Assembly (NCBI GenBank): GCA_017694495.1
Contig: JADIMU010000046.1
Coordinates: 1 to 39,832 of the forward strand
From: Candidatus Aphodenecus pullistercoris
Lineage (GTDB): Bacteria > Spirochaetota > Spirochaetia > Sphaerochaetales > Sphaerochaetaceae
Direction of reading: 5' to 3'
DNA: 39,832 bases
Numbering within the stretch: position 1 is the first letter of the stretch; each line of letters begins with the position of its first letter. Positions 1-21,272 of the stretch are shown here, piece after piece. A program made the translations under genes and the position numbers. The notes beneath the pieces are model-generated. The model had not been told where the DNA came from, searched no databases, and worked only from the letters and a program-made list of their open reading frames with translations.

Positions 1-1055
1 GGAGGAGCGGCAAGGAGATGCCTGCCGACAGGGAGGAGTACGAGGCCGCACTGGCCGATGGAGTGGCCTTCCACTTCCTGTCCACCCCGATCGACTTCAG
101 CGACGGCGCGCTCACGCTCTCGCGCATGGTCCTCGGCGAGAAGGACGAGGGTGGCAGACGTCGCCCCGTCGACTCCGGCGAGACCTTCATGATCGGCTGC
201 GACCTCCTCGTGATGGCCATAGGCGACAGGGCCTCGAGCCCTCTGCTCGATGGTCTCAGCCTCGAGACGAAGGACGACTACAAGGTAGGCGACCACGTCT
301 TCGTCATCGGTGACAGCGTCAGCGGCCCCTCGACTGTCGTCCGTGCCATGGCGAGCGCCCGCCATGCCGTAGACGAGTGCATCGACCTGACACTCGACGA
401 GCTCGCGGACGAGGATGATGACGACGATGATGATGAGTGCGGCTGTGGCCACCACCATGAGGATGGAGAGGAGTGCGGCTGTGGACATCATCACCATGAT
501 GACGATGACGAGTGCGGTTGCCACGATGAGGACGAGGACTTCACGGCACGTGAGGACGAGTACTTCAAGGAGCTTGTCAGGAAGAAGACGCACATCTGCG
601 TATCTGGTGGCGACGACCTCCTCAAGAAGGAGGCCGGGCGGTGCATGGAGTGTTCCTACCTGTGCAACAAGTGCGTGGACGTCTGCCCCAACCGGGCCAA
701 CGTGGCCATCGACATGAGGGACAGCGGACTCTTCGACGACCCCTTCCAGATCCTCCACCTCGACGCCTATTGCAACGAGTGCGGCAACTGCGAGACCTTC
801 TGCCCCTACGATGGAGGTCCGTACAGGAAGAAGTTCACCCTCTTCTCCAGTGCCCACGACTTCCTCGACAGTACGAACGAGGGCTTCTGTGTGGAGGGTG
901 ACCTGGTGAGCGTGCGCAGCGAAGGCTGTGTACGCCAGGCACATATCGACAAGGAAGGCAACCTGGAGATGGACATCGACGAGAAGCTGCTGGCCATCAT
1001 CAGCGAAGTCTTCATCTCCTATCCCTACCTGCTCAACGCAGTCGACAAGGACTAG
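1..1055 (+). CDS. ygfK: YgfK, putative selenate reductase / purine hydroxylase FeS-flavin subunit (3' part)
   Basis: The frame is open from the left edge (codons from base 3), so only the C-terminal ~350 residues are present. The visible part begins in a flavoprotein pyridine-nucleotide oxidoreductase domain (motifs DLLVMAIGD and HVFVIGDS, typical of GltD-like subunits). It ends with ferredoxin-type cysteine clusters: CMECSYLCNKCVDVCP at about 635-700 and CNECGNCETFCP at about 771-805. YgfK is the electron-transfer subunit thought to partner the XdhD/YgfM Mo-hydroxylase, and here it heads ssnA, ygeY, ygfM and xdhD as in the E. coli and Clostridia clusters. Oddity: between the two domains lies an insertion of about 44 residues made almost only of Asp, Glu, Cys, His and Gly, with three ECGC-type units (408-539). 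Cytoplasmic. The family call is strong; the substrate of the complex is uncertain. Confidence 0.9.
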   Translation, partial: RSGKEMPADREEYEAALADGVAFHFLSTPIDFSDGALTLSRMVLGEKDEGGRRRPVDSGETFMIGCDLLVMAIGDRASSPLLDGLSLETKDDYKVGDHVFVIGDSVSGPSTVVRAMASARHAVDECIDLTLDELADEDDDDDDDECGCGHHHEDGEECGCGHHHHDDDDECGCHDEDEDFTAREDEYFKELVRKKTHICVSGGDDLLKKEAGRCMECSYLCNKCVDVCPNRANVAIDMRDSGLFDDPFQILHLDAYCNECGNCETFCPYDGGPYRKKFTLFSSAHDFLDSTNEGFCVEGDLVSVRSEGCVRQAHIDKEGNLEMDIDEKLLAIISEVFISYPYLLNAVDKD

Positions 1056-11490: not shown

Positions 11491-12771
11491 ATGACAAGCG
11501 ACTGTATGCACACCTTCACACAGATCCTCGCCGAGGAGCTCCAGCCGGCCCTCGGATGTACCGAACCCATCGCGATAGCCTATTGCGCCGCTGTGGTGCG
11601 CAAGACCCTGGGCGCCATGCCTGAGCACATGGACATAGCCACCAGCGGGAACATAATAAAGAACGTCAAGGCCGTCACAGTGCCCAACTCGGGTGGAATG
11701 AAGGGAATTGAGGCCGCAGCCTGCCTCGGCGCCCTCGCCGGTCGGGATGACCTCGTCCTCGAGGTCCTCTCGTGCGTAGACGATGAGGCGAGGGCGAAGG
11801 CGGCTCATCTCGTCGACTCTGGAGTGTGCTCGCTTTCCCTCGCAAAGGACGTCCCCTCTCTCTATATAGACATCACGGGGAGGGCCGGTGACCACAGCGT
11901 TAGGTGCACGGTCGCAGGCGAGCATACGAACATCACGCATCTGGAGAAGGACGGGACCGTCATCCTGGACAAGAAGGCCAGGTGCGCCACCAGTGACAAT
12001 CAGGACAAGGCCGACAGGTCTCAGCTGTCCGTATGCCGCATCATAGACTACGCGAAGAGCGTCGGCATAGATGAGATCGCTCCCATCCTGGAGCGCCAGA
12101 TCGAGTGCAATGTCGCGATCGCGAAGGAGGGCCTGTCGCGCAAGTACGGCGTGTCCGTCGGTCGGACCTTGCTGACCCATTACGATGCCGGCGATGTGCG
12201 CATCCGCGCCCGTGCCATGGCCGCGGCTGGAAGCGATGCGAGGATGTCGGGCTGTCCCCTTCCTGTGGTCATAAACTCAGGCTCGGGCAACCAGGGCCTC
12301 ACAGTCTCCTTGCCTGTGATCGAATACGCCCGCGCCTATGGCAAGAGCCATGAGGAGCTGCTGCGCGCCCTGGCCTTGTCCAATCTGACCGCGATCCACC
12401 AGAAGCGCTACATCGGTCCGCTTTCGGCCTTCTGCGGAGCCGTCAATGCGGCCACAGGTGCCGCCGCAGGCATCTGCTTCCTTCTTGGTGGCAGCGATGA
12501 CGAGATCAGCCAGACGATTACGGACGTGCTCGCCAACGTCGGCGGCATCGTATGCGACGGCGCCAAGCCCAGCTGCGCGGCCAAGATCTCCTCAGCCCTG
12601 GAGGCGGCCATCCTGAGCTACGAGATGACGAAGGAAGGCAACTGCTTCAAGCGGGGCGAAGGACTCGTCGGGCGCGACATCGAAGCCACGATCGAGAGCT
12701 TCGGCCGCGTCGGCCGCGAGGGCATGAAGGAGACGGACAACGAGATACTGAAGATCATGCTTGAGGAGTGA
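11491..12771 (+). CDS. L-cysteine desulfidase / serine-dehydratase-alpha-like FeS protein (CyuA/YhaM family)
   Basis: 426 residues, CyuA/UPF0597 family. Family marks are ALGCTEPIAIAYCAA near the N-terminus, ATSGNIIKNVKAVTVPN, INSGSGNQGLTVSLP, and the cysteine-bearing SAFCGAVNAATGAAAG and GIVCDGAKPSCAAK. The cysteines probably bind an Fe-S cluster. Known relatives release sulfide from L-cysteine. Its place between the hydroxylase and selenium-supply genes makes cysteine, selenocysteine or a purine-derived amino acid plausible substrates (inference). ATG 11491 lies ten bases after a -10 box and has no Shine-Dalgarno, so the mRNA is nearly leaderless; Met6 is the alternative. Its end overlaps the convergent xdhC-like gene by 17 bases. 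Confidence 0.85.
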   Translation: MTSDCMHTFTQILAEELQPALGCTEPIAIAYCAAVVRKTLGAMPEHMDIATSGNIIKNVKAVTVPNSGGMKGIEAAACLGALAGRDDLVLEVLSCVDDEARAKAAHLVDSGVCSLSLAKDVPSLYIDITGRAGDHSVRCTVAGEHTNITHLEKDGTVILDKKARCATSDNQDKADRSQLSVCRIIDYAKSVGIDEIAPILERQIECNVAIAKEGLSRKYGVSVGRTLLTHYDAGDVRIRARAMAAAGSDARMSGCPLPVVINSGSGNQGLTVSLPVIEYARAYGKSHEELLRALALSNLTAIHQKRYIGPLSAFCGAVNAATGAAAGICFLLGGSDDEISQTITDVLANVGGIVCDGAKPSCAAKISSALEAAILSYEMTKEGNCFKRGEGLVGRDIEATIESFGRVGREGMKETDNEILKIMLEE

Positions 12772-13645: not shown

Positions 13646-14771
13646 CGAGCACCTCCTTCAGCGTCCTTGTCAGGATCTCATAGTCTTCTTCCGTGGTGAA
13701 GGGTCCTGCCGAGAAGCGCAAAGTTCCGCCGGGCCAGGTCCCCAGAGCCCTGTGGGCGCATGGCGCGCAGTGCATGCCGACCCGGCTCTCTATCCCGGCC
13801 CTCCGGCTCAGCTCCACAGTCAGCCTGGAAAGGTCCATCCTCCCGGTCGTGACGGAGAAGAGCGGCACATGGCGATCAAGGTCCGTCCTGCCCACGATCT
13901 CCAGGCCGTCGACCCTGGCGAGGGCTTCGTAGAGCCTCACTGTGGCCTTCCTCTCGGCATCCCTCAGCTCTTTCCTGTGCGCTTCAAGATGTGCCAAGGC
14001 GGCATCCAGACCTGCGATGGCTGGCGTGTTCAAGGTGCCGGCCTCATAGCGGTCAGGTATCGATGTTGGCATTTCGAGACTGTCCGACTGGCTGCCTGTA
14101 CCTCCCGCGATGAGCGGACTGAGCTGACAGAGGTAGTCGTCGGTGGCGATGAAGCCTCCAAGCCCTTCCGGTGCGAGGAGGCCCTTGTGTGCTGTGAAGG
14201 CGAGGGCGGAGATGCCTAGAGCCTCCATGTCGATGTCCATGTATGGCGTCGCCTGGGCCGTGTCCACGACGAGCGGGAGCGCGTGGCGGCGGGCGAAGTC
14301 GGCAGCCCTCTCCAGGTCGGCGACGATGCCGCTGACGTTGCTTGCCGCGTTGACGACGAGAAGTGTGCAGCTGTGGTCGACGAGCTTGTCGGCCTCGTCC
14401 CAGAGTGTGCCTCCGCTTGTGTCGTGTGGAAGGAGGCGGAAGGGGATGGAGTGCATGGCCAATGTCCTCATGACAGCATTGTGCTCAAAGGACGTGCACA
14501 GGACTGTGCCATCCTTGTTGCCACGCCCTGCGATCAGGACGTTCAGAGCTTCGGTGAGGCTGGGAGTGAAGACGGCCGTACTCCTGGTCCCGAAGAGGGC
14601 CGAAAGCCTGTCCCTGAGAGCGAGCAGCCTGTCCTCCTCCGCTTCCATGGCCTTGGAGAAGGTGCGGTTCGGATTCACGCACTCGTCTTGAAGATGGCGC
14701 ATGACGGCCTCGGGAACTCCAGGGGCCTTGGGCCAGCTCGTGGCCGCGTTGTCGAAGTAGACGCGTCTCAT
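13632..14771 (-). CDS. Cysteine desulfurase-like PLP enzyme of SDMH clusters
   Basis: 379 residues, class V aminotransferase fold. The N-terminal VYFDNAATSWPKAP is characteristic. The PLP lysine is Lys196 in FTAHKGLLAPEG, VVDTAQATPY carries the PLP aspartate, and the C-terminal GMHCAPCAHRALG contributes Cys335/Cys338 for persulfide or perselenide chemistry. It matches the cysteine desulfurase family found beside selenium-dependent hydroxylases in enterococci and clostridia. A likely role is mobilising S or Se for Moco maturation by the XdhC-like protein, which follows and overlaps it. The second Met (14771) was chosen: the first ATG (14780) lies inside the -10 box, and 14771 fits a leaderless transcript. 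Confidence 0.88.
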   Translation of the reverse strand: MRRVYFDNAATSWPKAPGVPEAVMRHLQDECVNPNRTFSKAMEAEEDRLLALRDRLSALFGTRSTAVFTPSLTEALNVLIAGRGNKDGTVLCTSFEHNAVMRTLAMHSIPFRLLPHDTSGGTLWDEADKLVDHSCTLLVVNAASNVSGIVADLERAADFARRHALPLVVDTAQATPYMDIDMEALGISALAFTAHKGLLAPEGLGGFIATDDYLCQLSPLIAGGTGSQSDSLEMPTSIPDRYEAGTLNTPAIAGLDAALAHLEAHRKELRDAERKATVRLYEALARVDGLEIVGRTDLDRHVPLFSVTTGRMDLSRLTVELSRRAGIESRVGMHCAPCAHRALGTWPGGTLRFSAGPFTTEEDYEILTRTLKEVLDGNI

Positions 14772-14778
14772 GGTGACC

Positions 14779-14824
14779 ATTCTAGCACAAGCCCATTGTT
14801 TTTACAGATTGCTAATGGTAGAAT
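14779..14824. promoter_or_regulatory. Interleaved divergent promoters for the PLP enzyme (-) and yedE (+)
   Basis: Rightward: TTGTTT (14796-14801), 17 bases, TAGAAT (14819-14824), then 8 bases to the yedE ATG. Leftward: extended -10 TGC-TAGAAT (complement of 14779-14784), then 7 bases to ATG 14771; its -35 region (14802-14807) abuts the rightward -35. Neither gene has a Shine-Dalgarno, so both mRNAs are predicted leaderless. Confidence 0.65.
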
Positions 14825-14832
14825 CGAAAAGC

Positions 14833-15903
14833 ATGAAAGTTCACAGAGAGAGACTTGTACTGTTTTCAGCAGGCGCTGTCGTCGCGGCGGCCGCCTTCAT
14901 CCTGGTACTTCTGGGCAATCCTGGAAACATGGGCTTCTGCATCGCATGCTTCCTGCGTGACATCGCCGGATCGCTCGGCTTGCACTCCAGCGCTACGACC
15001 CAGTACCTTAGACCTGAGATACCTGGCCTGGTGCTCGGCGCCTTCATCGTCGCCCTGGCACGCGGCGAGTTCCGGCCGACTAGCGGCTCGTCGCCCGTCA
15101 TCAGGTTCATCATCGCGGCCTGCGTCTCGATCGGCGCCCTGGTCTTCCTCGGCTGTCCGCTGCGCATGGTCCTCCGTCTGGCGGCAGGAGACCTCAACGC
15201 ACTCTTCGGCCTTGTCGGCTTCGTCATCGGAATCGGTCTGGGATGCATCGCGCTGAACTTCGGCTTCAGCCTCGGACGGACGAAGGAGTGCAGCGCCATC
15301 GAAGGCACATCGGCACCTCTCCTGTCGGTCTTCCTCCTCATCCTCGCCTTCACGGCGCCTTCCTTCCTCAAGGCCAGCACCGAGGGACCGGGAAGCATGC
15401 ACGCCCCGATCTTCGCCTCGCTGCTGATGGGCCTGGTCGTAGGCGCCCTGGCTCAGCGCTCCCGCCTGTGCTTCGCAGGAGGCGTCAGGGACATCTTCCT
15501 CATGCGTGACACCACTTTGATCACAGGCTTCGCTTCCGTCTTCGCCGTCGCCCTGGTCCTGAACCTCGTCTCCGGCAACTTCAGGCTCGGTTTCGAAGGC
15601 CAGAGCGTCGCACACACCGACTGGCTGTGGAACATACTCGGAATGGTCGTCGTCGGCTTCGGCAGCGTGCTGCTTGGAGGCTGCCCGCTGCGCCAGCTGA
15701 TCCTCGCTGGCGAGGGCAGCGGCGACAGCACGGCCGCAGTGCTCGGCCTCGTCATAGGAGGAGCCTTCGCCCACAACTTCGGCCTTGCAAGCTCCACCGC
15801 CGGTGCGACGGGTGCAGGCAAGGTCGCGACCGTCCTGATAATCGTTTTCTTCGCCCTGCTTTCGGTGACGGTCGTCGTCGCGAACAGAAGAAAGGAGGCC
15901 TGA
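14833..15903 (+). CDS. yedE: YedE-type selenium transport membrane protein
   Basis: 356 residues, YeeE/YedE family, about ten hydrophobic helices in two related halves. Each half carries a cysteine motif pair: GFCIACFLRD with GCPLRM in the first, RLCFAGGVRD with GGCPLRQ in the second. In YeeE homologues such cysteines relay thiosulfate through the membrane; YedE beside yedF and selD is thought to carry a selenium species. ATG 14833 was chosen over an upstream in-frame Met because TTGTTT-17-TAGAAT ends eight bases before it. First gene of the yedE-yedF-DUF3343-selD operon. Confidence 0.9.
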   Translation: MKVHRERLVLFSAGAVVAAAAFILVLLGNPGNMGFCIACFLRDIAGSLGLHSSATTQYLRPEIPGLVLGAFIVALARGEFRPTSGSSPVIRFIIAACVSIGALVFLGCPLRMVLRLAAGDLNALFGLVGFVIGIGLGCIALNFGFSLGRTKECSAIEGTSAPLLSVFLLILAFTAPSFLKASTEGPGSMHAPIFASLLMGLVVGALAQRSRLCFAGGVRDIFLMRDTTLITGFASVFAVALVLNLVSGNFRLGFEGQSVAHTDWLWNILGMVVVGFGSVLLGGCPLRQLILAGEGSGDSTAAVLGLVIGGAFAHNFGLASSTAGATGAGKVATVLIIVFFALLSVTVVVANRRKEA

Positions 15904-15904
15904 G

Positions 15905-16114
15905 ATGAAGAGGATAGACACAAGTGGACTGAGCTGCCCAGAACCCGTCATCATGACGAAGAAGGCGGTCAAGGGCCTTGATGGCGGCATCGAGGTCGTC
16001 GTCGACAACGTCGCCAGCCGTGAGAACGTCACCCGCTTCCTCGAAGCGACCGGCTTCACGGTGGAGCGCATTGAAGAGGGAAAGGGATGGCTGCTGAAGG
16101 CAAGCAGATCCTGA
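15905..16114 (+). CDS. yedF: YedF/TusA-like selenium (sulfur) carrier
   Basis: 69 residues, one TusA domain. The persulfide/perselenide-accepting Cys11 sits in GLSCPEPVIMTKKA, the family CPxP motif. TusA passes sulfur between proteins; YedF is the selenium-associated version and always travels with YedE and SelD. It starts one base after the yedE stop region and its end overlaps the DUF3343 gene by 28 bases. In many bacteria the YedF protein carries TusA and DUF3343-like parts together; here they are two overlapping genes. Confidence 0.88.
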   Translation: MKRIDTSGLSCPEPVIMTKKAVKGLDGGIEVVVDNVASRENVTRFLEATGFTVERIEEGKGWLLKASRS

Positions 16115-16329
16115 TCACCTTCCATTCCCACTACGATGCGGCCAGAATGAAGAGGAACCTCAGCGCACTGGGCCTGGGCTGCCAGCTGGTTCCGGTTCCA
16201 CGCTCCATCTCATCGAGCTGCGGGACCGCCCTCATCGTCACGGGAGAGGCTCCTCTTGAGGAGTGCGGCAGCCATGAGGCCGTGTATGTCATGAAGGAGG
16301 GACGATGGTCCGTCTTACAAGCACAGTGA
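16087..16329 (+). CDS. DUF3343 putative Se/S transfer protein
   Basis: 80 residues. The N-terminus ILITFHSHYDAARMKRNL and the segment LVPVPRSISSSCGTAL match small DUF3343 proteins, which resemble the C-terminal part of some YedF proteins and have one conserved Cys (about residue 45). It lies inside an operon between yedF and selD and overlaps both, so translation is probably coupled. The activity is unknown; the context suggests handing selenium on towards SelD. Confidence 0.82.
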   Translation: MAAEGKQILITFHSHYDAARMKRNLSALGLGCQLVPVPRSISSSCGTALIVTGEAPLEECGSHEAVYVMKEGRWSVLQAQ

Positions 16330-17324
16330 AGACTTCGGGCTGTGCGGCGAAGCTGCCGCCGGCCCAGCTGGAGAAGATACTTTCATCCTTGCCTCTGATG
16401 GAGGACGAGCGCCTCATCGTAGGCATCGAGACGGGGGACGACGCCCTTGCCTGGGACCTTGGTGATGGCAGGGTCATGATAGAGTCCGTCGACTTCTTTC
16501 CGCCCGTCGCGGATGATCCATACGAGTATGGCCAGATTGCCGCAGCCAATGCCCTGAGCGACATCTATGCGATGGGTGGGGAGCCTGCGGTCGCGATGAA
16601 CGTGATGTGCTTCCCGTCATGCATGGACTTGAATATCATGCGCTCCATCCTCCTCGGCGCCCAGGACAAGGTCCGCGAGGCTGGCGCCGTGATCGCCGGA
16701 GGCCATACGATAGCCGACAGCACGATCAAGTACGGCCTTTCCGTCACCGGTTTCACGACGAAGGACAGACTGTGGACGAACAAGGGTGCGCGCCCAGGCG
16801 ATGTCCTGGTCATCACGAAGAATCTTGGCGTGGGGATCATCAACACGGCGACCAAGGCCGGCATGGCAAGCGTTGAGGCTACTGCCAAGGCGCTTGAGAG
16901 CATGAAGACGCTCAACCGAAGGGCCTGCCAGGTGGCCAGTGGTCTGGCTGTGAGCGCCGCGACGGATATCACCGGCTTCTCACTGCTTGGACATGTGAAC
17001 GAGATGTGCCAGGGGGCCGGCCTGTCCTTCATCCTCGACTCCACTAGCATCCCCGTCTTCGACGTGGCCCTGGAATACGCCCGCTACGGCCTGATTCCAG
17101 AGGGCGCCTACAGCAACAGGGAACATCTTGAGGGCAAGGTGCACGTCTCCTCCACATTGCCAAGGGAGCTTGAGGACGTCCTCTACGACCCCCAGACTTC
17201 AGGTCCGCTCGCCCTCGCCATGACTGAAGGCGAGGCGGAGCGCTTCCTGGAAACCTTCGGCGACGATGGCAGGATCGTCGGACACTTCCAGGAAAGGGGC
17301 GAGTGGGTCATCGAAGTGCGCTGA
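16305..17324 (+). CDS. selD: Selenophosphate synthase SelD (cysteine form)
   Basis: 339 residues. The catalytic loop is TSGCAAKLPP with Cys13 and Lys16; it is cysteine, not selenocysteine. Nucleotide and metal-binding marks are ETGDDALAW, ESVDFFPPV, AAANALSDIYAMGG, IAGGHTIADS and DITGFSLLGH. It makes selenophosphate from selenide and ATP. AAGGAGGGA supports the start, which lies inside the end of the DUF3343 gene. Last gene of the selenium operon. In this setting selenophosphate probably feeds the selenium cofactor of the Mo-hydroxylases; selA/selB are not in the window, so Sec or selenouridine synthesis cannot be judged. Confidence 0.95.
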   Translation: MVRLTSTVKTSGCAAKLPPAQLEKILSSLPLMEDERLIVGIETGDDALAWDLGDGRVMIESVDFFPPVADDPYEYGQIAAANALSDIYAMGGEPAVAMNVMCFPSCMDLNIMRSILLGAQDKVREAGAVIAGGHTIADSTIKYGLSVTGFTTKDRLWTNKGARPGDVLVITKNLGVGIINTATKAGMASVEATAKALESMKTLNRRACQVASGLAVSAATDITGFSLLGHVNEMCQGAGLSFILDSTSIPVFDVALEYARYGLIPEGAYSNREHLEGKVHVSSTLPRELEDVLYDPQTSGPLALAMTEGEAERFLETFGDDGRIVGHFQERGEWVIEVR

Positions 17325-17330
17325 CGACTC

Positions 17331-17389
17331 CACTTTTGCAACACTCTGCAACACTTTTGCTTGTCAGCTGTCGAAAGCCGTGCTAGAGT
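17331..17389 (+). promoter_or_regulatory. ygeW promoter with tandem operator-like repeats
   Basis: TTGTCA (17361-17366), 17 bases ending in TGC, then TAGAGT (17384-17389). Just upstream are two direct copies of TGCAACACT (17337-17345 and 17347-17355), ten bases apart, inside the larger repeat CACTTTTGC (17331 and 17352). One helical turn between copies suits an activator or a repressor dimer. The leader is about 40 bases long with AGGAGA before the ATG. Confidence 0.6.
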
Positions 17390-17431
17390 GTGGCTATAGA
17401 CAAAGCACATTCTTCACATAGGAGACAAGAC

Positions 17432-18631
17432 ATGAGGACACAAGCCGAAATCAAGGCCATGATCGAGGTGCTGGCGAAGCTCGACACCAGCAGAATGTAT
17501 CTCAACGACTTCTTCCACACCTGGAAGGAGAGCGACGACGAGATCGCAGCCGTCTTCCAGGTCGCAGAGATTCTGAGGGCTATGCGCGAGGACAACATCT
17601 CGACCAAGGTCTTCGACTCCGGCCTTGGAATCTCCATCTTCCGCGACAACTCGACGCGCACACGCTTCTCCTTCGCCTCGGCGTGCAACCTGCTCGGCCT
17701 CGAAGTACAGGACCTCGACGAGAAGATCTCCCAGATCGCCCACGGCGAGACCGTCCGCGAGACGGCCAACATGGTCTCCTTTATGGCCGACGTCATCGGC
17801 ATCAGGGACGACATGTACATCGGCAAGGGCCACACCTACATGAAGACGGTCGCCGACAGCGTGGCCGAAGGCTACAAGGACGGCGTGCTCGAGCAGAGGC
17901 CGACTCTGGTCAACCTCCAGTGCGACATCGATCATCCGACCCAGTCCATGGCCGACATGCTCCATGTCATCAACCACTTCGGCGGGGTCGAGAACCTCAA
18001 GGGCAAGAAGATCGCAATGACCTGGGCCTATTCGCCTTCCTATGGCAAGCCGCTCTCAGTTCCCCAGGGCATCATCGGACTCTTCAGCCGCTTCGGCATG
18101 GAAGTCGTCCTGGCACATCCCGAAGGCTATGACATCATGAAGGACGTCGAGGACGTTGCCGCCGCGAACGCCAAGGCTTCCGGAGGATCCTTCCGCAAGG
18201 TCGACTCGATGGAGGAGGCCTTCAAGGATGCCGACATCGTCTACCCGAAGAGCTGGGCTCCCTACGCCGTCATGGAAGAGAGGACCCGCCTGGTCGAGGC
18301 TGGCCGCTTCGACGACCTCAAGGACCTCGAGAAGCGCTGTCTCGAGAACAATGCGAAGTTCAAGGACTGGACATGCACCGAGGATCTGATGAAGACGACG
18401 AAGGACGGCAAGGCGCTGTACATGCACTGCCTGCCAGCCGACATCACAGGCCTTTCATGCAAGGAGGGCGAGGTCGACCGCTCCGTCTTCGACCGCTACC
18501 TCGTTCCCCTCTACAAGGAGGCCAGCTACAAGCCTTACATCATCGCCGCGATGATCTTCCTCTCGAAGTTCGAGAAGCCTTCCGCCAAGCTCCAGATGCT
18601 GCTTGACGAGGCTAGGCCGAGAATCAAGTAA
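17432..18631 (+). CDS. ygeW: YgeW knotted carbamoyltransferase
   Basis: 399 residues, aspartate/ornithine carbamoyltransferase superfamily, YgeW branch. The carbamoyl-phosphate motif is FRDNSTRTRFSF (about residue 70), and MHCLPAD carries the second phosphate-binding element. Length and the segments AYSPSYGKPLSVPQ and YPKSWAPYAVMEE fit YgeW rather than ArgF/PyrB. In purine clusters YgeW probably uses a carbamoylated or ureido intermediate to yield carbamoyl phosphate and hence ATP, but its acceptor is not settled. The ATG has AGGAGA seven bases upstream; the open frame before it is leader. It has its own promoter and is followed by a 13-bp hairpin. Confidence 0.9.
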   Translation: MRTQAEIKAMIEVLAKLDTSRMYLNDFFHTWKESDDEIAAVFQVAEILRAMREDNISTKVFDSGLGISIFRDNSTRTRFSFASACNLLGLEVQDLDEKISQIAHGETVRETANMVSFMADVIGIRDDMYIGKGHTYMKTVADSVAEGYKDGVLEQRPTLVNLQCDIDHPTQSMADMLHVINHFGGVENLKGKKIAMTWAYSPSYGKPLSVPQGIIGLFSRFGMEVVLAHPEGYDIMKDVEDVAAANAKASGGSFRKVDSMEEAFKDADIVYPKSWAPYAVMEERTRLVEAGRFDDLKDLEKRCLENNAKFKDWTCTEDLMKTTKDGKALYMHCLPADITGLSCKEGEVDRSVFDRYLVPLYKEASYKPYIIAAMIFLSKFEKPSAKLQMLLDEARPRIK

Positions 18632-19694: not shown

Positions 19695-21272
19695 ATGGCA
19701 CAGAAACCGGACTATGTTGCTTCTTTCAAGAAGCCGCCAAACACAGAGATCAAGCTCATCAGCGGCAAGTGGTATCTCTACCGCACGAGCTGCGAATATG
19801 ACAAGGAGAGCAAGAGGCCCCGGAAGAAGAGTGGCGAGTATCTCGGCGCCATAAAGGAGGATGGGTTCCATCCCAAGAGGGGTGCAGCTCTGCCAGAAGT
19901 GGAAGAGGAGATCGAGATCAAGGAGGCTGGAGCCACCTCCTATTTCTACAAAAGGTGCGAATACATCCGCACCCAGCTGCAGGTCCATTTCCCTGATTGC
20001 TGGCAGCAGCTGTTTGCCATCGCACTTATAAGGGCTGTCCACGAATCCCCGCTCAAGAGGATTGCAGACAGGTATGAATGTTCAATCCTGTCGGAAATAC
20101 ATCCTGAACTGAGGCTTTCAAAGGACGACATCACTCCGCTTCTGCAGAGGGTCGGCAGGGACAGGAAACACATCAGGCTGTTCATGGTAGGCGCTTATGA
20201 GAAGAAGTCGTCATCGTTCATGCTCTTTGATGGGCACCGTCTGATCTCCCATTCAGAGACACTTGAGAGCGCCCATCTCGGATATGATTCGAAGATGAGG
20301 TTCGAGCCCCAGTCCAATCTGATCTGTGCGTTTTCCATCGACGGCAGCGAGTGTTTTCCCGCCTACTACAAGGCGGAAGATGGAGATGTCATAGACAGTG
20401 TTGCATTCTCGGATGTCATCGCAGAGATGGGAATAGACAAGAAGAATGTGGCCATCATCGGCGACAAGGGATTCAACGGGGAAGGAAACATCGATCTCAT
20501 GGAAGATAAGGATCTGAATTATGTTCTTCCCTTGAAAAGGAACAGCAGTGAACTTTCTCCGCTCATGCCTGTCAGCGAGGCTCTTTACCAGGGCGGTTTC
20601 ACCTATGCGGGAAGGCCTATTCTTTTCAAGGACTGCATGCTTGAGGATGGAAGACGAATCTGCATCTTCCTTGACCAGAAGATGCGGCAGAAGGAGATGG
20701 GAGACAGCTTCAGGAGAACCGCCAGGCTGAATGCAGAAAACCTTGAAAGGGCCCGCAAGGAGGAGGAAAGACGTACCAAGGGGTGGACGCCGCTGCTCTC
20801 CGACGAGCGTCTTGCCGAACTGAAGTGTCCTGTTGATCCATTGTCCGTATTCGGGGATCCCACCCGTGCCGGCACATTGTCATTGATTACAAACATTGCA
20901 TCCTGCAGTGCAGAGGACATCTACCAGTACTACAAGAAGCGCGAGTGGATAGAGGACTTCTTCCGCATCTACGACAACACTCTCGACTTCGATTCCTCAT
21001 TCATGCGTGACAGGTATTCCTTCGAGGCCTGGCTGTTCCTGAACCACCTCTCGAGCTTGATGGCCTACGATGCATTGCATGACATAAAGAGCAACAACAT
21101 GCTGAAAAACCTTTCCTTCAAGGATTTCAGAGTGAAGCTCTCATCGATTGCAGCATGCAGGAGCACGGGAGAGTGGAAAGTGCAGAAGCTTACCGATAAA
21201 AGGAAGGCTTTCCTCTCGAAGTTCAATGTAGATATTGAAGGTGTACTGGCAGGCCTCAATACTTCAGCTTGA
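19695..21272 (+). CDS. IS1634/IS4-like DDE transposase
   Basis: 525 residues. Catalytic region marks: an early aspartate in MLFDGHRL (about residue 178), the second in VAIIGDKGFNGEGN (about 256), and the Y-(2)-R-(3)-E signature in QYYKKREWIEDFFR (about 417). Between the second and third lies a charged beta-insertion (RRTARLNAENLERARKEEER), usual in IS4-like enzymes. The frame is unbroken. ATG 19695 has AGGGGA about ten bases upstream and a promoter at 19637-19665. The family name rests on length, architecture and ends; IS1634 is preferred over other IS4 groups. Confidence 0.85.
   Translation: MAQKPDYVASFKKPPNTEIKLISGKWYLYRTSCEYDKESKRPRKKSGEYLGAIKEDGFHPKRGAALPEVEEEIEIKEAGATSYFYKRCEYIRTQLQVHFPDCWQQLFAIALIRAVHESPLKRIADRYECSILSEIHPELRLSKDDITPLLQRVGRDRKHIRLFMVGAYEKKSSSFMLFDGHRLISHSETLESAHLGYDSKMRFEPQSNLICAFSIDGSECFPAYYKAEDGDVIDSVAFSDVIAEMGIDKKNVAIIGDKGFNGEGNIDLMEDKDLNYVLPLKRNSSELSPLMPVSEALYQGGFTYAGRPILFKDCMLEDGRRICIFLDQKMRQKEMGDSFRRTARLNAENLERARKEEERRTKGWTPLLSDERLAELKCPVDPLSVFGDPTRAGTLSLITNIASCSAEDIYQYYKKREWIEDFFRIYDNTLDFDSSFMRDRYSFEAWLFLNHLSSLMAYDALHDIKSNNMLKNLSFKDFRVKLSSIAACRSTGEWKVQKLTDKRKAFLSKFNVDIEGVLAGLNTSA

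Follow-up and report, generated by a model that had tools for sequence, protein, structure and literature searches.

The stretch of DNA analysed here, the window, is 39,832 nucleotides long and opens within ygfK. The open frame at 3-1055 encodes the C-terminal end of YgfK and matches TIGR03315 with 281.4 bits over positions 700-1012 of the 1012-position profile; the score stays under the full-length cut-off, since only 350 residues of the protein fall within the window. The reading frame is cut by the contig start, and the N-terminal 697 residues, 71% identical to a relative and free of stops, form the end of contig C37. Since the N-terminal part sits at the end of C37, we infer that C37 and the window contig carry one ygfK, split by assembly rather than broken, and a truncated pseudogene was ruled out. 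The name 'selenate reductase' is outdated for YgfK, which is now known as a yanthine reductase. The E. coli enzyme uses NAD(P)H to reduce yanthine (2,8-dioxopurine); product formed only when SsnA was also present, in an assay that contained 1 mM ZnCl2 (PMC12507026). The FAD/NAD(P)H half of YgfK resembles NfnABC, NfnL/GltD and dihydropyrimidine dehydrogenase. Downstream of ygfK lie genes for SsnA, YgeY and Mo hydroxylases, then YedE, SelD and YgeW, and the adjacency of ygfK and ssnA is kept in nearly all loci, with or without the Cys/His-rich linker described below. The features of the locus are as follows.

3 to 1055, + strand: C-terminal 350 residues of YgfK (yanthine reductase family, TIGR03315), from the profile match; the 5' part is on contig C37
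408 to 539, + strand: YgfK linker, rich in Cys, His and Asp and predicted to be disordered, from translation and the AlphaFold pLDDT of a same-genus homologue
435 to 458, + strand: repeat unit 1, ECGCGHHH, with ECGC at 435-446, from translation and TRF
471 to 497, + strand: repeat unit 2, ECGCGHHHH, with ECGC at 471-482, from translation and TRF
510 to 524, + strand: repeat unit 3, ECGCH, with ECGC at 510-521 and then HD, from translation
642 to 689, + strand: Cys motif CMECSYLCNKCVDVCP of the C-terminal 4Fe-4S domain, from the domain match; cysteines invariant in orthologues
771 to 806, + strand: second Cys motif CNECGNCETFCP of the C-terminal 4Fe-4S domain, from the domain match; cysteines invariant in orthologues
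1071 to 2402, + strand: SsnA, amidohydrolase family, coupling partner of YgfK (PMC12507026), from TIGR03314 at 529.5 bits, over the cut-off

The window that holds ygfK, ssnA and ygeY also carries the genes for the YedE selenium transporter, SelD and YgeW, at 14770-18631. An IS1634-family transposase lies near this purine/selenium gene cluster at 19695-21272, and a 426-aa frame at 11491-12771, between the Mo-hydroxylase genes and YedE, has no NCBIfam match.

The linker follows the FAD/NAD(P)H domain, which ends in ...ARHAVDECI, and precedes the cysteines of the C-terminal 4Fe-4S domain. A reading of the sequence alone had described an insertion of about 44 residues with three ECGC units, two of them followed by His runs, and translation of 408-539 on the + strand confirmed it as the 44-residue segment DEDDDDDDDECGCGHHHEDGEECGCGHHHHDDDDECGCHDEDED with 16 Asp, 8 Glu, 8 His, 6 Cys and 6 Gly. 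The GAT/GAC-rich DNA repeat proposed in the same reading was likewise found: TRF places a repeat with a period of 39 and 2.4 copies at 429-517, and the GAT/GAC-rich lead covers 408-437. The AlphaFold model of a same-genus YgfK (L032, 26 sequences) has a mean pLDDT of 86.9. Its linker drops to 37-52, with residues 849-885 below 50, between helices at 821-846 and 891-909, so in this model the segment is most likely intrinsically disordered. The linker alone has no match among PDB sequences. Three linkers searched against Pfam at E values up to 10 gave no match either, metallothionein included, in a search limited by low-complexity queries.

Relatives were drawn from 196 genomes and a contig collection. 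Several linkers are identical to those in named relatives, with L032 equal to G009 and L034 to G117 (Spirochaetales/Spirochaetaceae MAGs), L038 to G104 (Sphaerochaeta sp.), and L037 to G004 and L039 to G059 (Sphaerochaetaceae); because of these identities, family f1 is most likely Sphaerochaetaceae. In f1, 78 of the 96 YgfK linkers are Cys/His-rich (at least four Cys plus His) and 75 contain CxC. Their forms range from HDHEHE in G016 through ECSCGHHH repeats in genus g16 and HECHCHDHEDGE in G008 to segments with 22-23 Cys in G026 and G022, and the number of linker cysteines in orthologues runs from none to more than 20. The Cys/His linker is absent from G004, G007 and G013 of the same genus, from six of the seven members of genus g8, and from all of g13; G004, G007 and G062 have acidic linkers that lack Cys and His. 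Linkers in nearby families are His/Asp-rich or only weakly of this type (G120, G121, G134, G147, G157, G166). In the Photobacterium, Klebsiella, Aeromonas and clostridial-type YgfK proteins sampled, the linker is short and has no Cys/His-rich stretch. On the question of whether the loop is shared by most YgfK proteins, then, most of f1 carry it, in very different forms, and the other sampled phyla do not. On an unrooted tree of the flanking sequences, where gain and loss are not separable, the trait changes about 12-13 times.

The suggestion that the repeat varies in length was borne out between close relatives. G006 has two repeat units and G010 four, with flanks 92% identical, and the linker of G066 holds five more HD than that of G037. 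Between close pairs, substitution in the linkers was 3% for Cys, 5% for His and 6% for Asp/Glu, as compared with 18% for other residues, and whole units were gained or lost. The residue and motif counts come from linkers that share descent and hence are not independent, and read with that in mind they are as follows: in the 96 f1 linkers His is 7.7 times as frequent as in the rest of the frame, and Cys is enriched 3.2-fold even against a control that includes the Fe-S cysteines; of the residues that a single codon change can reach from Asp (GAY), His occurs 533 times versus 45 for Asn, 49 for Tyr, 51 for Val, 186 for Ala and 317 for Gly; Cys occurs 465 times versus 33 for Phe and none for Trp; CxC is enriched fourfold (204 observed, about 50 shuffled) and CxCGH was seen 71 times versus 0.5 after shuffling; and CxxC is depleted (13 observed, 49.5 shuffled). 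Drift of an Asp repeat alone would yield His no more readily than Asn, Tyr, Val, Ala and Gly, and was ruled out by these codon and motif counts. Since CxC is enriched and CxxC depleted, a zinc ribbon or ferredoxin-type site was ruled out as well. Judged from sequence comparison, the pattern of turnover fits selection that keeps the metal ligands and leaves copy number free, because Cys and His are seldom substituted while units come and go.

Other carriers of such segments in this genome were sought by pattern searches. A TPR protein (G000 C4, about 46487-47760; L077:325-1596) has a hypervariable Cys/His/Asp C-terminal tail that ends in GHDHECGCGHDHDHHHHDDGDDDG... Its core is found across the class, and the Cys/His-rich tail occurs only in f1 among the genomes compared, reaching 14 Cys and 34 His in G027, while the G010 tail has six units of the HECHCHDDE type. 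In G118 the TPR gene is directly upstream of a gene that is TsaE-like by inspection. Several of the DNA-pattern matches for CxCGH[HD] and CxCH[DH] were out of frame or, by inspection, zinc ribbons of an AccD-like protein, and were set aside. Elsewhere in f1, a protein that by inspection is NifX/PF02579-like (L208, G019 C2:42000-44400) has a Cys/His tail, PTCGCHHHDDGCGQHGHGCDCGHHC. A further protein of this genome (L091, contig C15:48791) is ZnuA-like by inspection, a substrate-binding protein with an ordinary His/Asp loop, EDEHDHDHGHGD, and if so identified it is a sign of zinc uptake in this genome.

The TPR tail raises the possibility that the host protein hardly matters, and that Cys/His/Asp repeats are added to the disordered ends and linkers of unrelated proteins, YgfK and the TPR protein among them, as a general cytosolic metal sink for storage or detoxification. 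We hold this to be possible, though rather unlikely. The hypervariable tails on a class-wide core are confined to f1 among the compared genomes, the g1 species without the linker among those tested (G004 and G007) are also without the TPR tail, and linker and tail have a Spearman correlation of 0.47 at the species level. However, the genus-level value is 0.33 (p 0.17), the co-variation is not significant on the tree (5 independent pairs, about 1.5 same and 0.1 opposite) and is thus suggestive only, and the pattern searches of this genome gave only two proteins of the linker/tail type. A related and distinctly tentative proposal, which we think unlikely, is that f1 runs distributed metal buffering, in which fast-evolving CxC/His/Asp repeats on the YgfK linker and the TPR tail would replace a dedicated metallothionein or SlyD.

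The other rivals to metal buffering by the linker are all improbable. Acidic residues dominate the linker, its length changes in slippage-like steps and some orthologues have the acidic linkers without Cys or His noted above, as a neutral spacer grown by GAY/GAR slippage and devoid of metal function would have; the excess of His and Cys over other one-step codons, the CxC enrichment and the low rate of Cys/His substitution make such a spacer improbable nonetheless. An Fe(II) store or extra redox relay beside the Fe-S domain is suggested by the position of the linker between the FAD and 4Fe-4S domains. Yet the linker cysteines vary from none to more than 20 in orthologues whose cluster cysteines are invariant, so that no fixed cluster in the linker can be obligatory, and we rate this reading as quite improbable. 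The proposed delivery of metal to the FeS/Mo centres was unsupported. The likeness in composition to segments of SlyD, HypB and Hpn would suit a segment that stores Ni(II) for nickel enzymes or chaperones it to them, a role which we regard as very improbable: neither this genome nor most relatives that carry the linker have a HypA match above the cut-off, although some, such as G003, G006 and G010, do. With HypA, which the search covered, missing from this genome, a nickel-hydrogenase role is unlikely here. The tie to selenium that had been drawn from the linker's setting did not hold. The window also encodes SelD, the Se transporter YedE and Mo hydroxylases, which would fit a loop that binds selenium or delivers it to Se-dependent Mo hydroxylases; however, the SelD-negative one-contig genome G069 has a His/Asp-type linker with one Cys, the SelD-negative drafts G050 and G120 have linkers too, SelD-positive g8 and g13 genomes are without one, and the His/Asp linkers of G016 and G147, lacking Cys, cannot bind Se via thiols. 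The E. coli protein, moreover, is a yanthine reductase (PMC12507026). Because linkers are found in SelD-negative genomes and SelD-positive genomes can be without one, a role in selenium was rejected and is the least probable of the explanations considered.

A chelating loop for soft or borderline metals, as first proposed from the sequence, is the best reading of the linker given the conservation of its ligands, the CxC enrichment and the predicted disorder, and binding of a zinc-type metal is likely on these grounds. The disordered linker would bind several d-block ions, with clustered Cys-x-Cys thiolates, His and carboxylates as ligands; Zn(II) and borderline ions like it are the most likely metals. 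The linker is grafted between the FAD/NAD(P)H and C-terminal ferredoxin domains of YgfK, whose fold does not need it. By analogy with the tail of SlyD, the segment may serve as a metal buffer on a pathway enzyme and keep zinc exchangeable, a reading to which we give about even credence. The zinc could go to hydrolases of the pathway that depend on metal (YgeY, or SsnA encoded next door) or to the cytosol as a whole. Handover from the YgfK linker to SsnA is a guess, because ygfK and ssnA are equally adjacent with or without the Cys/His linker. In favour of the buffer, orthologous linkers that vary in length and copy number share ligand chemistry, be it as His/Asp only, as CxC/His repeats or with 22-23 Cys; the unrelated TPR protein has variable tails of like type in the same genomes; and ygfK-ssnA adjacency, the activity of YgfK only with SsnA and the ZnCl2 in the assay point the same way. 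Against it, the linker is dispensable, being absent from G004, G007, G013, most of g8 and all of g13, and its Cys:His ratio varies widely, so that the identity of the metal is not fixed. A role specific to YgfK is unproven, and the like tail of the TPR protein suggests a general one.

YgfK acts in the pathway by which gut bacteria degrade uric acid anaerobically, and a linker in this reductase, if it binds metal, would link purine breakdown to metal supply. The roughly 100 orthologues, with zero to more than 20 cysteines at one site, form a natural series on the origin and role of disordered metal-binding segments.

As compared with YgfK of the E. coli reductive uric acid pathway, the protein described here belongs to the same family and has the same neighbours (SsnA, YgeY, Xdh) and conserved cluster cysteines. 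The gamma-proteobacterial YgfK proteins sampled, those of Enterobacteriaceae included, differ in their short linker without Cys/His repeats. The His-rich segments of Hpn, Hpn-like proteins and HypB are likewise low-complexity metal stores, but they belong to nickel proteins tied to hydrogenase or urease, and this genome is without HypA. Metallothioneins are Cys-rich and dominated by CxC, as are the extreme orthologues of G022 and G026; unlike them, the linker sits inside an enzyme, is mostly Asp/His-rich and has no Pfam match. The frame itself is not SlyD, as it is YgfK and has no FKBP match, and this genome showed no FKBP frame of SlyD size. In SlyD the tail follows an FKBP isomerase domain at the C-terminus, whereas the segment described here lies inside a flavin/Fe-S reductase, as a linker, and has regular CxC repeats. 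The SlyD tail is unstructured, variable in length and rich in H, C, D and E, and the E. coli protein binds up to 7 Ni(II) and that of H. pylori 3.3 Zn(II) (PMC7055735). In its predicted disorder, variable length and richness in His, Cys and acidic residues the YgfK linker resembles this tail, which by analogy would be its closest working parallel.
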